The position numbers and the translations under genes are program-made. From a virus: a stretch of DNA of 39,453 nucleotides. This document shows, one piece after another, positions 1,795 through 38,276 of the stretch. Every line of letters begins with the position of its first letter. Position 1 is the first letter of the stretch. The notes under the pieces are model-generated. The model did no database searches and had not been told where the DNA came from. It saw nothing but the letters and a program-made list of their open reading frames with translations. The stretch spans positions 1-39,453 of the IMG/VR virus record IMGVR_UViG_3300014497_000016; one strand, 5' to 3'.

Positions 1795-2468
1795 GCGACG
1801 AGCAGGAACCCGCCTACCGCTGCACCCACTGCCCCCGCCTCCTCCACGCCAAGGAACTCGGGCGGCCCGTCTGCTTCGTCTGCGAAGACCGAGCCACCGA
1901 ACAAGTCCGAGTGTTCCCCGACTTCTACCGCCGGCTTGAGGCCGCACTCCGCCCGGGCCGCGCGCCGGGCCCCACCGGCCGTGTTACGACGAGCCGCAGC
2001 GCGCCGCTTCCCGTCGCCCTCCAACCGCTCAGTCTCCGCGGCCCGGGCGGGATCGTTTCGATGCTGTTGGGGATCGAGCAGCGGTGGCGGATCGCTCTCG
2101 ACTGGGAGCAGTTGCCCGTTCGTGGCGGGTACGAGGCCAGTCTCGCCGGGACGGTTGAGGTGATCGTCAACAACATGCGGTGGGCGTGCGCCGAGTACCC
2201 CTACGTCGCCCCTGACTTGAAGCTGATCGGAGTCCTGCACCGGCAGGCCGAAGCGATCGTCAACGACGTCCCCGATCAGCGCGTCCCTATCGGCGTATGT
2301 CCGGTCGTCGACGACGAAACCGGCGCACCGTGCGGGGAACGGCTGAAGGTGTCGCCGTTCGCGCTGCTGATCCGCTGCAACGGGTGCGGGACGCGATGGG
2401 GCCGCGACGAATGGCTGCGACTCGGGGCTGAGTTGCGGGGGCTCCCGGAGCCAGTTGTGGCGGCATAG
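1791..2468 (+). CDS. zinc-ribbon hypothetical protein, 225 aa
   Basis: GTG start overlapping the previous stop. Two candidate metal sites are visible. The N-terminal one is YRCTHC-x13-CFVC (residues 9-30). The C-terminal one is CPVVDDETGAPCGERL followed by CNGCG (about residues 169-205). Between them is a helical domain containing GIEQRWRIALDWEQL and VNNMRWACAEYPYV. This architecture is common among small-molecule-free, DNA-associated hypotheticals of Streptomyces phages and plasmids, but no function is established to my knowledge. It is the last plus-strand gene before the repeat array, which begins within a few bases of its stop. Confidence 0.75.
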   Translation: MSDEQEPAYRCTHCPRLLHAKELGRPVCFVCEDRATEQVRVFPDFYRRLEAALRPGRAPGPTGRVTTSRSAPLPVALQPLSLRGPGGIVSMLLGIEQRWRIALDWEQLPVRGGYEASLAGTVEVIVNNMRWACAEYPYVAPDLKLIGVLHRQAEAIVNDVPDQRVPIGVCPVVDDETGAPCGERLKVSPFALLIRCNGCGTRWGRDEWLRLGAELRGLPEPVVAA

Positions 2469-2471
2469 GAA

Positions 2472-3006
2472 GCCCTACGCCGCCACTGTCGTGCCTGCCG
2501 TGGCAAGCCACGTCCCGCCCCGCCGAGCCGTGCCGAGACAAGCCGTGCCTGCCAGGCCGAGCCCTGCCACGCCTGGACGGGCCCAGTCATGCCGAGCCAA
2601 ACCGCGCCTGCCGAGCCCCGCCCAACCCTGCCGGACCATGCCATACCTGGACGGACCTAGCCTGCCGTACCTCGCCTGGCAATGCCTCGCCTAGCCACAC
2701 CATGCCTGCCCTACCGCGCCGCGCCTGACCGTGCCTGAACCCGCCCAGCCGCGCCTGCCATACCCTACCGAGCCCAACCCAACCCGACCATGCACCGCCT
2801 GGACCCGCCTGCCAGACCGAGACAAGACCCGCCGGACCTAGCCGAACCGCGCCTGCCACGCCGTGCCGACCTTGCCACGACAGATCGCGCCTAACCTTGC
2901 CTGCCGCGCGAAGCCGTGCCATGACGTTCCTGGACACACCGCGCCGAACCCAGCCTGCCGAACGATGCCCTGCCAAGCCCTGAACTGCCTTACCGGGCCT
3001 GCCACG
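2472..3006 (-). repeat. phased degenerate pentanucleotide array with GCCTGCC anchors
   Basis: On the plus strand, GCCTGCC occurs eleven times, starting at 2493, 2547, 2606, 2660, 2704, 2753, 2807, 2851, 2899, 2953 and 2997. Spacings are 54, 59, 54, 44, 49, 54, 44, 48, 54 and 44. Nine of these ten equal 4+5n. Each interval parses as GCCT followed by 8-11 pentamers. I count 92 pentamers, about 72 beginning GCC or ACC; nearly all others differ by one base, most often GAC. The 48-base interval has one further 4-base step (CCTT). Read on the strand of the adjoining operon the unit is NNGGY with anchor GGCAGGC. The last unit touches the stop codon of the minus-strand gene at 3007. Open frames here are by-products of the 15-base (5-codon) periodicity. 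Function unknown; assigned strand reflects probable co-transcription. Confidence 0.93.
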
Positions 3007-3429
3007 TCACGCGGCGTCGAGATCTCGCCGCACCATCTCGACGAATTCCGCGAACTCCTCGTACTTCCGTCGGAGCGTCTTCCACTCACGCTCCATGTTG
3101 GCGAGAGCCAGCTTGGTGCGGAAAGGGTCCTCGGCAACTTCCTCGACCGGGTCGAAGACGTGACCTTCACCAGCCTGGATGGCGACGAACTTCCGGACCA
3201 GCCTCGGAGGGCCATCGCCATCAGACCGATAGGCAACCTTCGCCTTCTGAATCAGAACGTGAGCCTGCTCACGGCGATACTTCTCGGCCGCGACAGAGTC
3301 GTCCCACTCGAACCGCGAATGCAGCGGATGCGTCGAGTCCCGGGCTGCGTCTACCACGGCTTCAGGCGTCAACACCCCGCCGTTCGCCGACCGAATCGAC
3401 AGAAGCAGATCCACCGTATTCACGGTCAT
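3007..3429 (-). CDS. small helical charged protein next to the array, 140 aa
   Basis: The ATG at 3429 overlaps the stop of the upstream gene as ATGA, so the two are a coupled operon. The protein is nearly all helical and strongly charged. Notable segments are GGVLTPEAVVDAARD (about 17-31), FEWDDSVAAEKYRREQA (40-56) and a C-terminal coiled-coil-like stretch with MEREWKTLRRKYEEF. The aromatic-acidic FEWDD and YRREQA blocks look like a conserved phage family that I recall only as hypothetical. There is no catalytic motif. The pentamer array begins at its stop codon, which suggests they share a transcript. It may be a partner or adaptor of the 211-aa protein. Function not known. Confidence 0.85.
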   Translation of the reverse strand: MTVNTVDLLLSIRSANGGVLTPEAVVDAARDSTHPLHSRFEWDDSVAAEKYRREQAHVLIQKAKVAYRSDGDGPPRLVRKFVAIQAGEGHVFDPVEEVAEDPFRTKLALANMEREWKTLRRKYEEFAEFVEMVRRDLDAA

Positions 3430-4061
3430 GCAGCCACCAACTCCCCGGAGTCCCTGATGATTTCTACCTCACGCGCCGGGTCCACCCGGTAGGTGCCGAA
3501 GTCGCCGTCCTTCTCCGGGCGCCACTCGCCGACCCCAACGCCCATCCCGCCCGCGTCGATGAGCGAGAGCACCGAGCCCTGTGTGAGCGCCGAGGTGACG
3601 TAGCGGATCTCCAGGGTCGTGCGCCACTCGGAGAACTGCGGCCGGTAGCGCAGGTCCGAGCCGTTCCGGCCGACCGTGACGACGTCCTCACGCATCAGAG
3701 GGTCGCCCTCGATGCGGGTCAGTGCGCGGCCGTCGTCGCCTTCCTCGCCGTGGATGAACAGGAACTGCTTCAGGGCCGTCATGGTGACGCCCTGATAGAA
3801 GCGGGCGCCGCCGACGGTTGCCGCCTTGAAGGCGAGGGCAGGAAAGCCGAAACCGCCGTCCTTCAGCCGGTAGAACGCGGCCTCGTATTCGGCGTTCGGG
3901 TCCTTGGCCTGCTTCGGTGACTTCCGGCCCTGCATGGCGTCCAGCATCTGCCGCTTCGCTTTTTCGCTGAAGCGGTGAACGATGAGGGGGCTCGTTCCGA
4001 CGATGGGAACGAGGAGCGTTTCGGTGCCTACTCGGGTGATTTCGATCGCGGCGTCGGACAT
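3426..4061 (-). CDS. array-associated protein with glycine-rich loop, 211 aa
   Basis: The ATG at 4061 is preceded by AAGGGG about 8 bases upstream. The longer frame to 4247 runs through the promoter and is rejected. Visible features are a beta-like start LVPIVGTSPLIVHRFSEKAK (about 18-37), a basic loop with KSPKQAKDP, then FPALAFKAATVGGARF (about 74-89), a beta-rich second half, and a late loop GMGVGVGEWRPEKDGDFG. The order of strand, helix, F-P-x4-FK-x2 turn and terminal glycine-rich strand is reminiscent of RAMP (Cas7-type) RNA-binding folds, but this is inference without a profile search. It is not a recombinase or nuclease by any motif I can see. First gene of the minus operon that runs into the repeat array. 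Confidence 0.85.
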   Translation of the reverse strand: MSDAAIEITRVGTETLLVPIVGTSPLIVHRFSEKAKRQMLDAMQGRKSPKQAKDPNAEYEAAFYRLKDGGFGFPALAFKAATVGGARFYQGVTMTALKQFLFIHGEEGDDGRALTRIEGDPLMREDVVTVGRNGSDLRYRPQFSEWRTTLEIRYVTSALTQGSVLSLIDAGGMGVGVGEWRPEKDGDFGTYRVDPAREVEIIRDSGELVAA

Positions 4062-4220: not shown

Positions 4221-4247
4221 ATGGATCACCCCCACAAGGTGATCCAT
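4221..4247. promoter_or_regulatory. 10-bp perfect inverted repeat, operator or attenuator
   Basis: ATGGATCACC (4221-4230) and GGTGATCCAT (4238-4247) form a perfect 10-bp stem with a 7-base loop, followed on the plus strand by TTTT. It sits between the plus promoter and the gene at 4272. It could be a repressor operator or a terminator/attenuator in that gene's leader. Confidence 0.55.
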
Positions 4248-4271: not shown

Positions 4272-4490
4272 ATGGACCCCATCCTCGTCACCGCCGCCGA
4301 AGCCGCCCTCTGGACCGGACGCCCCGTCGGAACCATCTGGCGGTGGGCATCAGAAGGCCGCATCACCACCCACCGGGCACCCAACGCGCGCAAGAGAGAC
4401 GCCCGCTACGACCTTCGCGAACTCCCCGCAGCCACCGACGCCGGCCCCGGCCGCACGCCCCCGCTTCCCGAGGGCGTGCAGGCTGCGTAA
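4272..4490 (+). CDS. MerR/excisionase-like helix-turn-helix protein, 72 aa
   Basis: ATG at 4272 with AGGGGGTG just upstream. Residues 6-45 read as a winged-helix DNA-binding unit: VTAAEAALWTGRPVGTIWRW, then a basic wing RITTHRAPNARKRDARYDL. This is the pattern of small excisionase or MerR N-terminal domains (AAE-A-L---P-TIRRW---G). The C-terminal 25 residues are Pro/Gly-rich and disordered. It lies just behind a strong promoter and a perfect inverted repeat, so autoregulation, or control of the divergent array operon, is plausible. It could instead be a general phage regulator; excisionase activity is not shown. Confidence 0.75.
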   Translation: MDPILVTAAEAALWTGRPVGTIWRWASEGRITTHRAPNARKRDARYDLRELPAATDAGPGRTPPLPEGVQAA

Positions 4491-4522
4491 CGCAGACGGC
4501 ACCCACCAACACGGGGACTGTG

Positions 4523-4687
4523 ATGACGAGCTGGCAGCGGGTCAAGGCGTACGCGCGGCAGCGTGGGCAAGACCCGCGTGGCCAGGTCGTGCTTACCGCC
4601 CGTCAGGCTCGCCGGTACGTGAAGAAGTGGCACCGCGAGTTCCCGCACTTGAACGCCCAGGACTACATGGACGGGGGCGGCCGGTGA
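4523..4687 (+). CDS. small basic hypothetical protein, 54 aa
   Basis: ATG at 4523, with an in-frame GTG one codon earlier. Not in a family I know. The protein is basic and helical with VVLTARQARRYVKKWHREF in its middle, compatible with nucleic-acid binding. Its end overlaps the next GTG (GTGA, 4684-4687). Confidence 0.55.
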   Translation: MTSWQRVKAYARQRGQDPRGQVVLTARQARRYVKKWHREFPHLNAQDYMDGGGR

Positions 4688-4794
4688 CCTGCGCCGACCT
4701 GATCCGCTGGGTGCTGATGCGTCACTACGGCTGGTCGGCCGTGCAGGTTGCCGACATCCCGGATCGCCTGCTGCTCGCCGTCCTCGACGCGTAG
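4684..4794 (+). CDS. very small hypothetical protein, 36 aa
   Basis: GTG at 4684 overlapping the previous stop. The product is a single helical unit (CADLIRWVLMRHYGWSAVQV, then PDRLLLAVLDA). Supported by overlap, G/C third positions, and a following gene with a good ribosome site. Role unknown. Confidence 0.5.
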   Translation: MTCADLIRWVLMRHYGWSAVQVADIPDRLLLAVLDA

Positions 4795-4803
4795 GAGGCG
4801 GTC

Positions 4804-4953
4804 GTGCTCACCGTGTTCTGCTACGTCACCGCCCTCGTCCTGTTCGCTCTGGCCGCGACCATGCCGAACAACGTCCCGCGTGACCGGCTCGCCTACGCCG
4901 CCCTCGGCCTGTGGCTCCTCCCCACCGCCGTGCACGTCCTGCAAGCCCACTGA
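4804..4953 (+). CDS. small membrane protein, 49 aa
   Basis: GTG at 4804 after TAGGAGGCG, a near-ideal ribosome site. Two hydrophobic segments (about residues 2-19 and 29-45) flank a short PNNVPRDR loop, so it probably sits in the membrane as a hairpin. No family recognised. Confidence 0.55.
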   Translation: MLTVFCYVTALVLFALAATMPNNVPRDRLAYAALGLWLLPTAVHVLQAH

Positions 4954-5904: not shown

Positions 5905-8049
5905 GTGCCGAACGTGATCGTCTCCCCGACCGGCGTCCAAGGCCCCCGCGGCAACGCCGTCCTGAGCGGCGCCCGCACCCCCCTCGCGTCGGATGGCATC
6001 GACGGCGACTACTGGATCAACACCACCAACTACCCGACCAGCGCCGTCCTCTACGGGCCCAAGACATCAGGCGCGTGGCCCGGGTCGGGCATCACCTTCG
6101 GCGGGGGAGCCGTCGGCGCATTGCTCGCCGCCAACAACCTCTCCGACGTCCAATCCGCCGCGACCTCCCGCACCAACCTCGGACTCGGCACCGCGGCCAC
6201 CCACGCCACCGGCGACTTCGACGCATCCGGAGCAGCCGCCGCAGCACTCGCCAGCGCGCAGACCTACAGCGACAACGAGATCGCCGCTGAAGTCAACCGC
6301 GCTAACGCCGCCTACGTCGGCCTCACTGGCAACCAAACCAAGACCGGCCAGCTCACCTTCGCCGACTTCTACCCCGTCGGCCCCGGCTTCGAGCCCGGCT
6401 TCGACAACCAACTCGTCCCCAAGTTCTACGTCGACAAGCCCTGGGTCTTCGACGTCACCCGCGCCCCCTACAGCGCCAAAGGCGACGCCCAAGTCGTCGG
6501 CGACGGCGCCATGGGCTCCGGAACCGCCATCCTCACCTCAGCGACCGCGAACTTCCAGGACAGCGACGTCGGCAAAGCCATCAGCGTCAAAGGCGCCGCC
6601 GCGACCGGAGTCACCACCCTCATCACGACGATCGCCAGCCGCCAATCCGCAACCCAGGTCACCCTCAACGCCGCAAACGCCTCCGGCGGAGCAGTCAGCG
6701 GCGCGGTCGTCATCTGGGGCACCGACGACACCGCAGCCATCCAAGCCGCCGTCAACGCCGCCGAAACCTACCTGGCCAGTCACACCTACGCCCAGGTGTA
6801 CTTCCCGCCCCGCCCCTACATCATCGCCGGAGCCCTCAACACCTCCAAGAGCGGCAACGGACAGATCGTCTTCGGCGTGTACCCGGCCACGGCAAACAAG
6901 CGCATCCTGGAATTCCGCGGCGAAACCGACGGCGCCGCAGCCGTCCGCCACTGGCTCCAGACCGTCCCCCAGTACGCCGGATCCTGCCTCATCAGCTTCG
7001 GCGTGTACGCGTCCACGTCCGCGCAGATCTCCAGCATCAACACCGCAGGCAACCCCGGCGTCATCAGCGGACCCAGCGAAGGCTTCGGGTACGGGGCGAG
7101 CGCCCTCTACAGCAACATCATGCCGGTCATCAAGAACCTCGCCATCGGCACCACCCACAGCAGCTTCGGCCTCACCTACGGCATCGCCAACCTGTACGGC
7201 TGCGCCAACACCTACGTCGAAAACCTCGGCGGCGGCACCCTCGGCACCGTCGCCTCCCCCTCCACCGACTACAGCAACCCGGCCCTCTTCGGCACCGGCC
7301 TCTCCATCGGCCTACTCCTGCCATCGAACGGCAACAACGACCACAACATCGTCCGCAACGTATCCATCGGCGGCGGCTACACCTACGCCATGTTCCTCAC
7401 CGAACACGGCCTCGCCGACCGCTACATGGCGTTGTACTGCTGGGCCGGCCTGTGCGCCGTCGGCACCTACTTCGGGTCCGTGGGCGCCACCCACGCCATG
7501 AAAGCGCTGCAAGCCTCCATCGAGGCGTGCACGCACGAGCTGTACATCATCGGCGCCGGCTCCTCCGGTGTCGGCCCGATCGTCGACATCGACCAGCTGC
7601 AGACCGAGTCGGGCACCCCAAACGTCGGCGGGAACTCCACCGGGGCGGTCGCCGCGGCGCTCGGCAGGGTAAAGCTGACGGGCCTGTTCACCCCGAGCGG
7701 CTTCTCGACGTCGAGTGCGTGCGGTATCGAGTTCGTCAACGGGCAGGTCCCCAGGGCGGTAAGCCGCAAGACGGGTGCGTTCACCTGCAACCCGCTGGAC
7801 CGCACGCTGGTCTGCGACACCACAGCGGGTGGGGCGTTCACGGGCACTCTGCCGGACGCGTCGTTCAATCCGGTCGAGTACGTGTTCAAGAACGTCGGCA
7901 ACAGCACGCTGACCGTGGCCACCACGTCCAGCCAGCTGATCTACGCGACGAGCGGCACCGGCGCCACAACCGCCGCACTCGCCACCGGGCAGAGTCTCCG
8001 CGTCCAAGCCCTCTACAACGGCACCAGCTGGGGCTGGTACGCCACATGA
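5905..8049 (+). CDS. tail spike / tail fibre with beta-helix domain, 714 aa
   Basis: GTG at 5905 with GGGGAGA upstream. It begins with a short collagen-like TGVQGPRG and a DGDYWIN block typical of fibre adaptors. Then comes LLAANNLSDVQSAATSRTNL, the tail-fibre repeat seen in many phages. From about residue 185 to 600 the sequence is consistent with a pectin-lyase-like beta-helix (GDGAMGSGTAILTSATANFQ; DTAAIQAAVNAAE; many G-N-x turns). The C-terminal ~80 residues form another small beta domain. Role: host recognition and possibly depolymerase activity on surface sugars. Unusually it lies upstream of the terminase genes. Confidence 0.85.
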   Translation: MPNVIVSPTGVQGPRGNAVLSGARTPLASDGIDGDYWINTTNYPTSAVLYGPKTSGAWPGSGITFGGGAVGALLAANNLSDVQSAATSRTNLGLGTAATHATGDFDASGAAAAALASAQTYSDNEIAAEVNRANAAYVGLTGNQTKTGQLTFADFYPVGPGFEPGFDNQLVPKFYVDKPWVFDVTRAPYSAKGDAQVVGDGAMGSGTAILTSATANFQDSDVGKAISVKGAAATGVTTLITTIASRQSATQVTLNAANASGGAVSGAVVIWGTDDTAAIQAAVNAAETYLASHTYAQVYFPPRPYIIAGALNTSKSGNGQIVFGVYPATANKRILEFRGETDGAAAVRHWLQTVPQYAGSCLISFGVYASTSAQISSINTAGNPGVISGPSEGFGYGASALYSNIMPVIKNLAIGTTHSSFGLTYGIANLYGCANTYVENLGGGTLGTVASPSTDYSNPALFGTGLSIGLLLPSNGNNDHNIVRNVSIGGGYTYAMFLTEHGLADRYMALYCWAGLCAVGTYFGSVGATHAMKALQASIEACTHELYIIGAGSSGVGPIVDIDQLQTESGTPNVGGNSTGAVAAALGRVKLTGLFTPSGFSTSSACGIEFVNGQVPRAVSRKTGAFTCNPLDRTLVCDTTAGGAFTGTLPDASFNPVEYVFKNVGNSTLTVATTSSQLIYATSGTGATTAALATGQSLRVQALYNGTSWGWYAT

Positions 8050-8507
8050 CCTGGAAGGAGACCCTGGTGGACACCCTCACGCCCGACACCGCACCCGCAG
8101 CACCCGCCGAACTTCCCCCCGCATCTGCGGGCCCGGCGTGCGGGGCGTGCGGTGAACCGGCAGTCGTGAACTGGCGCCGCCGCCTCACCGACGGCGAACT
8201 CGCCGAACACGTCGCCCTGGAGCAGGAGCGCCGCGACCACGCCCTCCTGATCGCCAACCCCCAACTCCCGCCCCCCGTGTTCCCGCCACTCCCCGACGGC
8301 AGCGACGACACCCGCACCCTCTACGCCTGCGCCCAGCACGCCATCCGCATGGACGCCGCCGCCCACATCCACCACAACGCTTGCACCGCCCCCAATCAAG
8401 ACGGTGTCGACGGCTGCGACTGCACCCCCGAACCCCACCCCAAGCCGGCCACCGACACCCCGATCGAGAGCCGCCTCCCCGAGCACTGGCAGACCGGAGG
8501 CGCCTGA
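8046..8507 (+). CDS. zinc-binding hypothetical protein, 153 aa
   Basis: ATG at 8046 overlaps the spike stop (ATGA). After a Pro/Ala-rich lead, CGACGEPAVVNWRRR and then YACAQHAI-x8-HIHHNACTAP-x7-CDC form a likely zinc site (about residues 35-125). The middle has a coiled-coil-like segment with LAEHVALEQERRDHALL. Similar Cys/His proteins occur beside structural genes in Streptomyces phages; the role is unknown. Its stop overlaps the next ATG (TGATG). Confidence 0.7.
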   Translation: MTWKETLVDTLTPDTAPAAPAELPPASAGPACGACGEPAVVNWRRRLTDGELAEHVALEQERRDHALLIANPQLPPPVFPPLPDGSDDTRTLYACAQHAIRMDAAAHIHHNACTAPNQDGVDGCDCTPEPHPKPATDTPIESRLPEHWQTGGA

Positions 8508-9037
8508 TGAATCCCAACCGCGTCCTCCAGATCGACTTCGCGCAGCGCCGCGCCAAGCTCGTCGAATACCGGCGCCGCAAGGTCCCCTACGCCGACTTCT
8601 ACGAAGAACTCGGCTACGGCAGCATCCAGTCCGCCCGCAAGGACTTCACCCGCGCCCTCGAATACTCGATCGCCGCCCAGCACGCCAGCGTCGAGGTGTA
8701 CCGCGAAGAGCAACTCGAAGAACTCGACTACCTCGCCGAGGAAGCCCACAAGGTCATGCGGGCCACGCACTACGTAGTCGCCCCCGGCGGACGAATCGTC
8801 GAAGACCCCGAAACCGGGCGCCCCCTCATCGACGACGGCCCCCGCCTCCAAGCCATCGACCGCCTCATCAAGATCCTCAATCGCGTCGCGAAACTCCGCG
8901 GACTCGACGCCCCGCAGAAGCTGGAGGTGATGACGATCGATGCCATCGAAGCCGCCATCGCCGACCTCAACGCCCAAATCGCCGCTACTGACCCTGAAAC
9001 TGAAGCGGCTGCAGGAACTGAAGAAGCTCCAGGCTGA
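8507..9037 (+). CDS. terminase small subunit-like protein, 176 aa
   Basis: ATG at 8507. The N-terminus (IDFAQRRAKLVEYRRRKV then YADFYEELGYGSIQSARKDF) reads as a helix-turn-helix, and a long helical region follows (residues 45-170). Size, acidic C-terminus and position just ahead of the large terminase fit the DNA-recognition subunit that selects the packaging site and regulates the motor. The assignment rests mainly on context. Confidence 0.75.
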   Translation: MNPNRVLQIDFAQRRAKLVEYRRRKVPYADFYEELGYGSIQSARKDFTRALEYSIAAQHASVEVYREEQLEELDYLAEEAHKVMRATHYVVAPGGRIVEDPETGRPLIDDGPRLQAIDRLIKILNRVAKLRGLDAPQKLEVMTIDAIEAAIADLNAQIAATDPETEAAAGTEEAPG

Positions 9038-10553
9038 GCTACAACGCCGCGAAGCCGAACGCCTCCGTCACATAGACGTCTTCGGCCTCCTCGGCTACAT
9101 CCCCACGCCGAAGCAGCAAGAGTTCCATGCGGCGACCGAGTTCGACGTCCTGTACGGCGGCGCAGCTGGCGGCGGCAAAACCAAAGCGTTGCTCATGGAC
9201 GATCTTCTTGACTGCGTCCGCCACCCCGGCATCCGTATCGGAGCGTTCCGCCGGACCTACGGCGAACTGAAGGAAAGCCTCCTCGCCGAACTGGCACAGG
9301 TCGAGTACGCGGCGGCCCTCGGAGCCTCCTGGAACGGCACCGAGTACGAACTACGGTTCCCGAACGGCTCACTGCTGATGTTCCGCTACGCAGAGAGCGT
9401 CAAGGACGCCAGCCGTCGGCAGGGTGGCCAGTACCAGAAACTCACCTTCGACGAGCGGACCCTTACCCCGCCTGACGTGTGTTCCTTCTTGGAATCCCGG
9501 ATCCGTTCCGGCCGCGCCGAGGTACCAGTCATCGGCATCCGGTCCGGCACCAACCCGGGAGGCGCCGGCCACGGCGCCGTGAAAGCCCGCTACATCCAGC
9601 CGACGAAATACGGTGCCAGCGTCGTAACTGATGAGCGAGGCAGGAACGTCCGCTTCATCCCGAGCCGGCTATCCGACAACCCGCACGTGAACCCGGAGTA
9701 CGCCGCAGACCTCAAGGCACTCCCCGACAAGCTACGCGCCGCATTCCTGGACGGTGACTGGGACGTGTTCGCCGGCCAGATGTTCCCCGAGCTCAAACGC
9801 GAACGGCACGTCGTCGAACCGATCACGCTGCCTGCCACGTGGAAGCGGTACAACGGGCTGGACTGGGGTTTCACGAAGCCATGGGCCGTACTGTGGGCTG
9901 CAGTCGACGAAGACGGCCGCGTGTGGGTGTACCGGGAGATCTACCGCACGCAGGTCGGCGAGTCCGACCAGGCGAAGCAGATCCTCGCCGCCGAGGCTGA
10001 CGGCGAGCATGTCGCCGTCCGGTTCGCGGACGACGCGATGTGGGCCACCCGCGGCGATGCCAAGCCGATCGCCCACATCTACGCCGAGAACGGCGTGCAT
10101 CTCACCCAGGCCGGGAAGGGCGCCGGCAGCCGCGTCAACGGCTGGCAGCGCGTCCACTCCTACCTCGGTGAGGGCCCGGCCTGCCCGCATCACCGGGCGC
10201 AGGGCTGGGACACCTGCCCGAGGATGCACGTCTTCTCCACGGTGACAGAGCTGTACCGGGAACTCTCGGACCTGCCACACGCCACGAAGGGCGACCCTGA
10301 GGACGCCGACACGACAGCAGACGATCATGCATCCGATGCTCTGCGCTATCTCCTAACCAACCTGGGCACAGGCCCGGAGATGGTCATTCTCGATGATGTG
10401 CCGGCAGAGCCGATCGCCGAGGTGCTTCAGCCGCTCGGACTGACCATGGCGGTCCGACCGACCGCTCCCGCCCCCTCGGATGATGCGTGGTGGCCCGAGG
10501 ACGACGAGACGACGCCGCGTGCGGGGAGGACGGTGGAATCCCCGTGGGTCTGA
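8940..10553 (+). CDS. terL: terminase large subunit (packaging ATPase/nuclease), 537 aa
   Basis: The packaging motor. The Walker A GGAAGGGKT is at about residues 73-81, and Walker B is LTFDE (Asp171-Glu172). The RNase-H-like nuclease domain shows GLDWGF (Asp308), FADDAMW (Asp364-365) and DDHASDAL (Asp461 to Asp466). An arginine-rich FRRTYGELKESLL follows the P-loop. The ATG at 8940 gives a 98-base overlap with the small subunit; the true start may be later at a non-ATG codon (CTG near 8988), since no ATG or GTG occurs before the conserved region. A Pro/Asp-rich tail follows the nuclease domain. Confidence 0.95.
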   Translation: MPSKPPSPTSTPKSPLLTLKLKRLQELKKLQAELQRREAERLRHIDVFGLLGYIPTPKQQEFHAATEFDVLYGGAAGGGKTKALLMDDLLDCVRHPGIRIGAFRRTYGELKESLLAELAQVEYAAALGASWNGTEYELRFPNGSLLMFRYAESVKDASRRQGGQYQKLTFDERTLTPPDVCSFLESRIRSGRAEVPVIGIRSGTNPGGAGHGAVKARYIQPTKYGASVVTDERGRNVRFIPSRLSDNPHVNPEYAADLKALPDKLRAAFLDGDWDVFAGQMFPELKRERHVVEPITLPATWKRYNGLDWGFTKPWAVLWAAVDEDGRVWVYREIYRTQVGESDQAKQILAAEADGEHVAVRFADDAMWATRGDAKPIAHIYAENGVHLTQAGKGAGSRVNGWQRVHSYLGEGPACPHHRAQGWDTCPRMHVFSTVTELYRELSDLPHATKGDPEDADTTADDHASDALRYLLTNLGTGPEMVILDDVPAEPIAEVLQPLGLTMAVRPTAPAPSDDAWWPEDDETTPRAGRTVESPWV

Positions 10554-35968: not shown

Positions 35969-35991
35969 AGTGCGCGTGTATGGTTGTCGTC

Positions 35992-36579
35992 ATGGACTTC
36001 GGATACGCCCGGGTCTCCACCGCCGACCAGAACCCGGATCACCAGATAGACGCCCTCCTGCGGGCTGGCGTCGAAGAGAAGAACATCCACATCGACTACG
36101 CCAGCGGCGCCAAGGCGTCTCGGCCTGAGTTCGACATCCTCCTGAAGCGCCTACGTGAAGGAGACACGCTCAAGGCCACGCGCCTGGACCGGATCTCCCG
36201 ATCGCTGCTCCATCTCGTCAACCTCGGTGCCGAGTTGAAGGAACGGGGAGTCGGACTGCACATCATCGAGCAGGGCATCGACTCCTCCACCCCGGAGGGC
36301 CGGGCCATGTTCGGCATGCTCGGCGTCATGGCCGAGCTGCAGCGCGAGCTCATCCTGGCGAACACCATGGACGGCCTCGCCGCCGCACGGGCTCGCGGAC
36401 GCATCGGAGGACGTCGCCCCAGACTCACCGAACAGCAGGCGATCCTCGCGCAGGAGCTATACGACAAGCGAGAGAAGACCGTGCAGGAGATCGCCGACCT
36501 CTTCGGCGTGCCGCGCACCACCGTGTACGGCCACCTCAACCGATCGACCACCAACGCCAGGAAGGAAAAGGGGAAGTGA
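35992..36579 (+). CDS. small serine recombinase (resolvase/invertase type), 195 aa
   Basis: ATG at 35992 (an earlier in-frame ATG at 35980 is possible; neither has a ribosome site, so the message may be near leaderless). The catalytic domain shows GYARVSTADQ with Ser9, DYASGAKASRPEFD, and KATRLDRISRSLLHL with the active-site arginines. The long E-helix (FGMLGVMAELQRELI) leads into a C-terminal helix-turn-helix (TVQEIADLFGVPRTTVYGHL). It is too short for a large serine integrase. It may resolve dimers or invert a segment; no inverted fibre cassette is visible. Confidence 0.92.
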   Translation: MDFGYARVSTADQNPDHQIDALLRAGVEEKNIHIDYASGAKASRPEFDILLKRLREGDTLKATRLDRISRSLLHLVNLGAELKERGVGLHIIEQGIDSSTPEGRAMFGMLGVMAELQRELILANTMDGLAAARARGRIGGRRPRLTEQQAILAQELYDKREKTVQEIADLFGVPRTTVYGHLNRSTTNARKEKGK

Positions 36580-37871: not shown

Positions 37872-38276
37872 CTATGACCGGGTGGCCTCAGCCACCTTCT
37901 GCTGCTGACCGCCTAGCCGGAAGCCGTGGATGCTCACCCCGGCGCGCCGGGCAAACCACACTGCGTCATCCTTCGACATCGGGCTGCCAGTCGGGGTCGC
38001 GAACAGAGGACCCTCGTCACGAGTGCCGATCAGTTCCCGCAGCATCTCGGCTGTCTGCTCGCTGAAAGGGACCGTGCGCGGATCGCCCTCATACTTCGGG
38101 AAGTCGACCGTCGCCATCCGCACCCCCAAGTCCGCATCCCGTACATCCAGGGACAGCAAGTCACCCAGCCGCAGCTTGCCCTCCCGGAGCAGCGTCCACA
38201 GCACGCGATGCCGTAGCGGGATCGTGTCGTCGGAGACGAGCTGGAGATATCGGTCTTCGTTCACGGCTTCAGGCAT
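37872..38276 (-). CDS. truncated tyrosine-recombinase-like protein, 134 aa
   Basis: ATG at 38276. The sequence LRHRVLWTLLREGKLRLGDL-LSLDV matches the first catalytic-box region of tyrosine recombinases (Gly-Arg/Lys-Leu-Arg/Gly-x-x-L-L). It is followed by a beta sheet (VDFPKYEGDPRTVPFSEQTA with the usual Lys position) and a short SIHGFR matching the H-x-x-R box. It ends soon after with no nucleophilic tyrosine and has no core-binding N-terminal domain. It is probably not an integrase, but a diverged regulator or remnant. Confidence 0.75.
   Translation of the reverse strand: MPEAVNEDRYLQLVSDDTIPLRHRVLWTLLREGKLRLGDLLSLDVRDADLGVRMATVDFPKYEGDPRTVPFSEQTAEMLRELIGTRDEGPLFATPTGSPMSKDDAVWFARRAGVSIHGFRLGGQQQKVAEATRS

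Follow-up and report, generated by a model that had tools for sequence, protein, structure and literature searches.

The 39,453-nt window analyzed here (the whole of IMG/VR virus record IMGVR_UViG_3300014497_000016, positions 1 to 39,453) very probably carries a phage-encoded VIPR system, which is RNA-guided and resembles a minimal CRISPR; some of its guides appear to be directed against a host E1/JAB defense operon, against competing phages, and against a mobile element that has integrated into Streptomyces genomes. VIPR was first described in 2026 in a preprint (PMC13142463). There, the Vipr protein is a minimal RAMP, the guide RNAs (vrRNAs) are composed of alternating GGY and NN elements, targets are read as NNxNNx with the skipped base falling mostly at codon wobble positions, the system acts by transcriptional repression, and seven types differ in their accessory genes and array layouts. 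The window probably derives from a soil phage with Streptomyces as its host, the host being one that we infer from the relatives of the phage and from the targets of its guides. The remainder has the look of a tailed-phage genome, in which we noted, by eye only, a serine resolvase-like open reading frame (ORF) at 35980..36579 and a short integrase-like ORF near 37872..38276 on the minus strand.

The locus lies on the minus strand and consists, in order, of a gene encoding a 211-amino-acid (aa) protein (gene A, the vipr gene; ATG at 4061, stop at 3426), a gene encoding a 140-aa protein (gene B; 3429..3007), and an array with 5-nt periodicity (2496..3003). Genes A and B overlap as ATGA, and the first GGY of the array, at 3003, stands 3 nt beyond the TGA stop codon of gene B (3009-3007), so that the minus-strand coordinates bear out both the coupling of the two genes and the start of the array at the second stop codon, as a preliminary description made from the letters alone had claimed. 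An in-frame ATG farther upstream, at 4247, was considered as an alternative start for gene A, and homologues give it no support. Directly after the array is a terminator-like hairpin (2457..2486, minus strand), perfect over 13 bp (-33.7 kcal/mol, z -3.6). ORFs of 79 to 129 aa span the array on both strands (2587..2976, minus; 2455..2694, plus); they are by-products of the repeat, and automatic tools are likely to annotate them as proteins.

Sequence comparison and a predicted structure agree that gene A is a Vipr protein, a minimal RAMP with a glycine loop that is homologous to the Vipr of phage SUSP1. Searches of Pfam and NCBIfam with gene A gave no match, and genes A and B both fall into PHROGs families of unknown function (phrog_4652, E = 1.7e-41, and phrog_15946, E = 3e-26, respectively). 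The single match of gene A among PDB sequences was 36pp_D, “SUSP1 Vipr protein” (E = 0.0023), to which a profile built from 55 sequences of the gene A family aligned over nearly the whole length with an E value of 2.2e-13; alignment with the Vipr of phage SUSP2 by hhalign gave a probability of 98 (E = 1.3e-13). The AlphaFold model of gene A (pLDDT 87) resembles Csm3/Cas7 RAMP proteins (Foldseek, Csm3, E = 8.7e-6; VIA, Z = 11.3 over 162 residues). The preliminary description had pointed to a glycine-rich loop and a RAMP/Cas7-type fold in this protein; the loop, GVGEWRPEKDG, turned out to be its most conserved part, and the model returned a RAMP rather than an unrelated fold.

Read on the minus strand, the array follows the pattern GGY-NN, the vrRNA signature of VIPR systems. 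It contains 56 GGY pairs at exactly 5-nt spacing in about 520 nt (517 to 530), compared with 6.0 ± 2.5 (maximum, 16) in first-order shuffles (n = 2000) and with 7 at the best other place in the window on either strand. TRF did not report this repeat because three of every five bases are constrained and two are variable. The array is made up of ten units of 44 to 59 nt, each closed by a 4-nt GGCA, acting as punctuation, ahead of the next GGC. A guide would thus comprise 8 to 11 pentamers plus the GGCA unit, i.e., 9 to 12 units, which falls within the approximately 9 to 16 repeats per guide typical of VIPR; these borders are provisional because some matches of guides from two related loci (L027 and L068) run across the GGCA join, which may be a point of processing or of overlap. 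Unit lengths across the clade are mostly 39, 44, 49, 54, 59, or 64 nt (n x 5 + 4). Folding of two guides singly gave no significant structure, the sole stable hairpin found being that at the end of the array, and the guides abut without an invariant structured 3′ tail. The earlier explanation of the 5-base phase as the footprint of a backbone protein agrees with the fact that a 5-nt scaffold is the repeat of the RNAs bound by homologous Vipr proteins.

Gene B looks like an accessory (vap-like) protein, and its model points weakly to a winged-helix-like domain rather than to Cas11. Pfam and NCBIfam held no real match to it, and an R3H match with an E value of 0.09 was dismissed as noise. The model (pLDDT 94) has four strands in addition to helices, in disagreement with the small helical protein first proposed. 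Its VIA matches cover the N-terminal part (residues 1 to 99) and are mostly to winged-helix DNA-binding chains, with Z values (≤6.4) under the level that is trustworthy on its own and hence with no convincing fold match; these weak matches are nevertheless the nearest folds, and Cas11, to which gene B had been likened, was absent from the Foldseek and VIA lists. A single-sequence hhalign comparison of gene B with the SUSP accessory gene (presumed from its position to be vap1) revealed no similarity. In SUSP1, vap1 makes repression stronger.

The association of the two genes with an array holds well beyond this phage. Of the 95 loci that encode a gene A relative, 91 also have a relative of gene B, as expected of a VIPR accessory gene. 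A GGY-NN array, defined as a chain of at least eight units, is found on the vipr strand in 76 of the 95 and on the opposite strand in none; several of the 19 array-less loci are cut contigs. The co-occurrence of gene pair and array is therefore real, and gene pairs without arrays are not common in this sample. With the same detector, the positive control SUSP2 yielded two guide tracts, each followed by a tail of about 45 nt. Both genes also occur in sequenced phages of Gordonia and Mycobacterium, and an array is present in both of the loci that were read. In Gordonia phage Pipp (L125), the VIPR locus is annotated as hypothetical genes gp42/gp44 and its array as a protein gene, gp43; in Mycobacterium phage Saal (L126), the locus is the hypothetical pair gp51/gp52, with the array upstream.

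Some of the related arrays are very long. That of L027 (5683-9661) extends over 4 kb, with about 450 steps and >60 guide-like units, and has vipr on one side and the gene B relative on the other. Viral contig L032 has a 2.9-kb GGY-NN array of about 426 steps (7429-10280) preceded by a smaller one, and in L024 vipr has a long array on either side (4373-4881 and 6042-6545), of which the downstream one includes stretches at 14-nt spacing. Long arrays are also present in Faecalibacterium/Clostridiales contigs (L012:5686-6512 and L013:5222-6069), and the clade therefore extends to the Bacillota.

To decode the guides we used the published 1-nt-skip rule, under which the target is read as NNxNNx. 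Conservation between homologous guides follows the division into scaffold and NN that this rule presupposes: in three copies of guide U3 from three phages, 4 of 27 scaffold columns vary and none of 18 NN columns does, and for guide U7, of which six copies were aligned, the first five units give corresponding values of 4 of 15 and 0 of 10. When all arrays were compared with all of the non-array DNA collected, the best scores were 26 and 20 for a skip of 1 in natural order. Seven control readings, in which the skip was 0, 2, or 3 or the order was reversed, scored 16 to 18, except that reversed order with a skip of 0 gave 20. There were 146 perfect windows of eight dinucleotides, a count inflated by loci that had been fetched with U3, and we therefore rely on hits that are independent of U3. 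No guide of the ten-guide array matches its own window. At the level of sequence matches, then, the targets fit recognition in the NNxNNx manner with the skip at wobble positions, as in VIPR. Targets were sought for guides U2, U3, and U5 to U10.

Guide U3 (2854..2901, minus strand; AA TA GC CT GT AA TC AC GT) was searched first because three phages have it in their arrays, the other two being L016 and L017. A search of 199 Streptomyces genomes with U3 returned four exact matches (18/18), all in one gene, with the skipped bases exactly at wobble positions and differing between genomes; an independent protein search found the target gene in those four genomes only. The gene combines a JAB-like domain (Prok-JAB match, 0.005, below the cut-off) with a ThiF/E1 domain (Pfam ThiF, E = 2e-26; PADLOC E1-E2, 1.6e-11). 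Two genes lie upstream of it. One is small, about the size of an E2 gene, and matched no family; the other is ubiquitin-like (Multi_ubiq, E = 0.036, a value short of the cut-off). A CD-NTase gene comes next in L113 and L114 (PADLOC cyclase, E = 6.5e-159; tblastn, 84% in L114) and, together with the ubiquitin-like, E2-like, and E1/JAB genes, makes the operon there of the CBASS type; no CD-NTase was found in the operons of L112 and L115. The operon thus resembles CBASS with E1/E2/JAB in its ThiF-E1 and JAB domains and, in two genomes, its CD-NTase and differs from it in the extra ubiquitin-like gene. In L112 an ImmA/IrrE regulator and an nSTAND3 protein adjoin the E1/JAB operon. This Streptomyces defense island (L112:6425-14836) also holds, besides the Ubl/E2-like/E1-JAB operon, a 668-aa gene of no assigned family. 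By homology, the operon would have a role in defense. Other candidates for U3 were rejected: a match in L097 is out of frame, one in L098, although in frame, falls in an unrelated repeat protein and is probably due to chance, and a list of 61 genomes at 2 mismatches was set aside as mostly one conserved gene repeated.

The E1/JAB loci were fetched with U3 alone, yet guides from the arrays of three further phages match this operon elsewhere than U3 does. One L027 guide matches the E1/JAB gene of L112 at 26/26 positions and a homologue in another actinobacterium at 27/28, at the motif LDYDVIFSCVDRPW, and a second L027 guide matches a divergent E1 at 17/18, again at LDYDVIFSCVDRPW. An L032 guide matches the operon at 16/16 (IPVVDGGI), an L068 guide matches the small first gene of the operon at 16/16, and a stretch of seven dinucleotides from L027 matches the CD-NTase at 14/14. 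In all cases the skipped base is at the wobble position in the reading frame of the gene. We consider it likely that actinophage VIPR serves as an RNA-guided counterdefense, the arrays of several phages being aimed independently at conserved motifs of one immune operon; this reading covers the ubiquitin-like E1/JAB operon and, for one array, also the CBASS CD-NTase. Because the skipped bases are at wobble positions, synonymous changes would on this reading offer the host gene no escape.

A different interpretation, which we regard as unlikely but deserving of weight, is that VIPR acts only against competing phages and mobile elements and that the E1/JAB matches reflect an operon carried by rival mobile elements. 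Satellites and prophages are given as the main targets in PMC13142463, the targets of U2, U9, and U10 fit rival elements, and the surroundings of the L112 operon look like a mobile island, with a recombinase-like ORF and further defense genes nearby. What this interpretation accounts for poorly is that four arrays converge on one defense operon, one of them on the CD-NTase as well, and that they do so at conserved E1 motifs; the convergence fits defense genes as the target, whoever the carrier.

The remaining guides, all on the minus strand, include three with candidate targets in such elements. For U2 (2902..2955; TG TC GC GT CA AC AT AC TT GC), the best target is a tyrosine integrase that belongs to an integrated element and was matched in three Streptomyces genomes (19/20, 18/20, and 18/20, wobble-aligned). 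U9 (2550..2608; GC TT TC AT TG CC CA GT AG TC CT) has a wobble-aligned 21/22 match in a 106-kb viral contig, and U10 (2496..2549; AC TT TC AC TC GG GG GT TT AC) matches the tape-measure genes of two GC-rich phage contigs, also wobble-aligned, at 18/18 over its first nine pairs and 19/20 over the full guide. The U9 and U10 matches are each moderate when taken alone because 1 to 3 chance hits per guide occur in exact scans of a collection this large; at up to 2 mismatches, neither guide matched anything in the 199 Streptomyces genomes, and a U10 match in L119 (GC 0.48) was regarded as chance. Searches with U5 (2756..2809; GG CA GG AT CG TG TG TC AG AT), U6 (2707..2755; GC TG GG CA AC CA GC GC AG), U7 (2663..2706; AT GT TA GA AT CA GA AC), and U8 (2609..2662; TA CC CA AT AT CC AG TG GG TC) gave nothing above chance, U5 and U8 being at background. 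The one U6 match, in L122, is out of frame and so attributable to chance, as are the one-mismatch matches of U7 in two Streptomyces genomes; guides related to U7 are present in five other phage arrays. The array is completed by U1 (2956..2999; CC AA AG AG TT AG AT TC, followed by GGCA) and U4 (2810..2853; GC TC TA CC GG TT TC CT). Elsewhere in the clade, a guide of L019 (at 6938) matches a gene of the VIPR-bearing phage L017 at 20/20 and one of L055 (at 6273) matches a gene of the VIPR-bearing phage L080 (at 3291) at 18/18, both wobble-aligned, suggesting phage-on-phage targeting inside the clade.

These matches also bear on the notion that the array is an iteron-like structural or regulatory DNA repeat and Vipr a nucleic acid-binding protein without guiding. 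The array is indeed long, periodic, and GC rich, but NN differs between guides and yet is kept between homologous guides, in other genomes NN reads out coding sequence with the skips at wobble positions, the strand of the array is fixed relative to vipr, and the 26/26 match and the four 18/18 matches contradict it outright, so that we give it very little credence. Equally implausible is a degenerate class 1 CRISPR-Cas remnant composed of Cas7 and Cas11, since for all its RAMP fold gene A belongs by sequence to the Vipr family, the repeats are 5-nt GGY-NN and not repeat-spacer, and gene B looks winged-helix-like rather than like a Cas11 bundle. With the Cas7/Csm3 backbone of class 1 systems the locus does share the fold (Z = 11.3 to Csm3) and periodic nonpaired positions; it differs in having no repeat-spacer array or long identical repeats and in skipping every third target base instead of every sixth.

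Among known systems, the closest likeness is to VIPR type II, as represented in PMC13142463 by Escherichia phage SUSP1 and a P. fulva prophage. Common to both are a homologous Vipr (E = 1e-13), tandem intergenic repeats of GGY/NN adjoining vipr, a small accessory gene, carriage by a phage, and a 1-nt skip with wobble alignment. Unlike in type II, each guide here runs directly into the next through a 4-nt GGCA join, long invariant 3′ tails between guides are absent, the accessory protein has no relation to SUSP vap1 detectable by single-sequence comparison, and one target is a host defense operon. The VIPR types with “staggered arrays with overlapping vrRNAs” (fig. S18 of the preprint) possibly have the same architecture, with guides meeting at GGCA. 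The gene pair and array had been put forward as an undescribed RNA-guided conflict system; homology, the array, and the target matches support such a system, whose class was, however, described in 2026 (PMC13142463). VIPR itself is therefore known, and it is the aiming of guides at host immunity, as read from the sequence matches, that appears to be new: the main text of the preprint makes no mention of CBASS, Streptomyces, or antidefense.

By analogy with the published work, the system could operate as follows. The vipr gene, the accessory gene, and the 10-guide vrRNA array would probably form one minus-strand transcript, which would be processed as in the SUSP1/P. fulva work, here perhaps at GGCA. 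Vipr subunits, with their RAMP fold, would coat the guide RNA, each holding one GGY in place and exposing the two NN bases, and the NN pairs of one guide would read double-stranded DNA as NNxNNx..., the skipped base usually being the codon wobble. The bound complex would then sit on the target gene and repress or silence it, as in SUSP1. U3 would in this way silence the host JAB/E1-like gene of ubiquitin-like/CBASS-type operons, a form of counterdefense that presumably protects the phage. With U3 directed against a host defense and other guides against rivals and mobile elements, the system therefore looks like a programmable weapon against both.

VIPR is a class only months old that has been proposed to predate CRISPR and has been presented as a weapon that phages use on one another. 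The present locus and its relatives place the same code in actinophages, in multiguide arrays that can be decoded from sequence alone, and such decoding is a possible way to find unknown defense systems and unknown phage competitors. If the silencing proposed here is true, phages carry programmable libraries that switch off the defense genes of their hosts.
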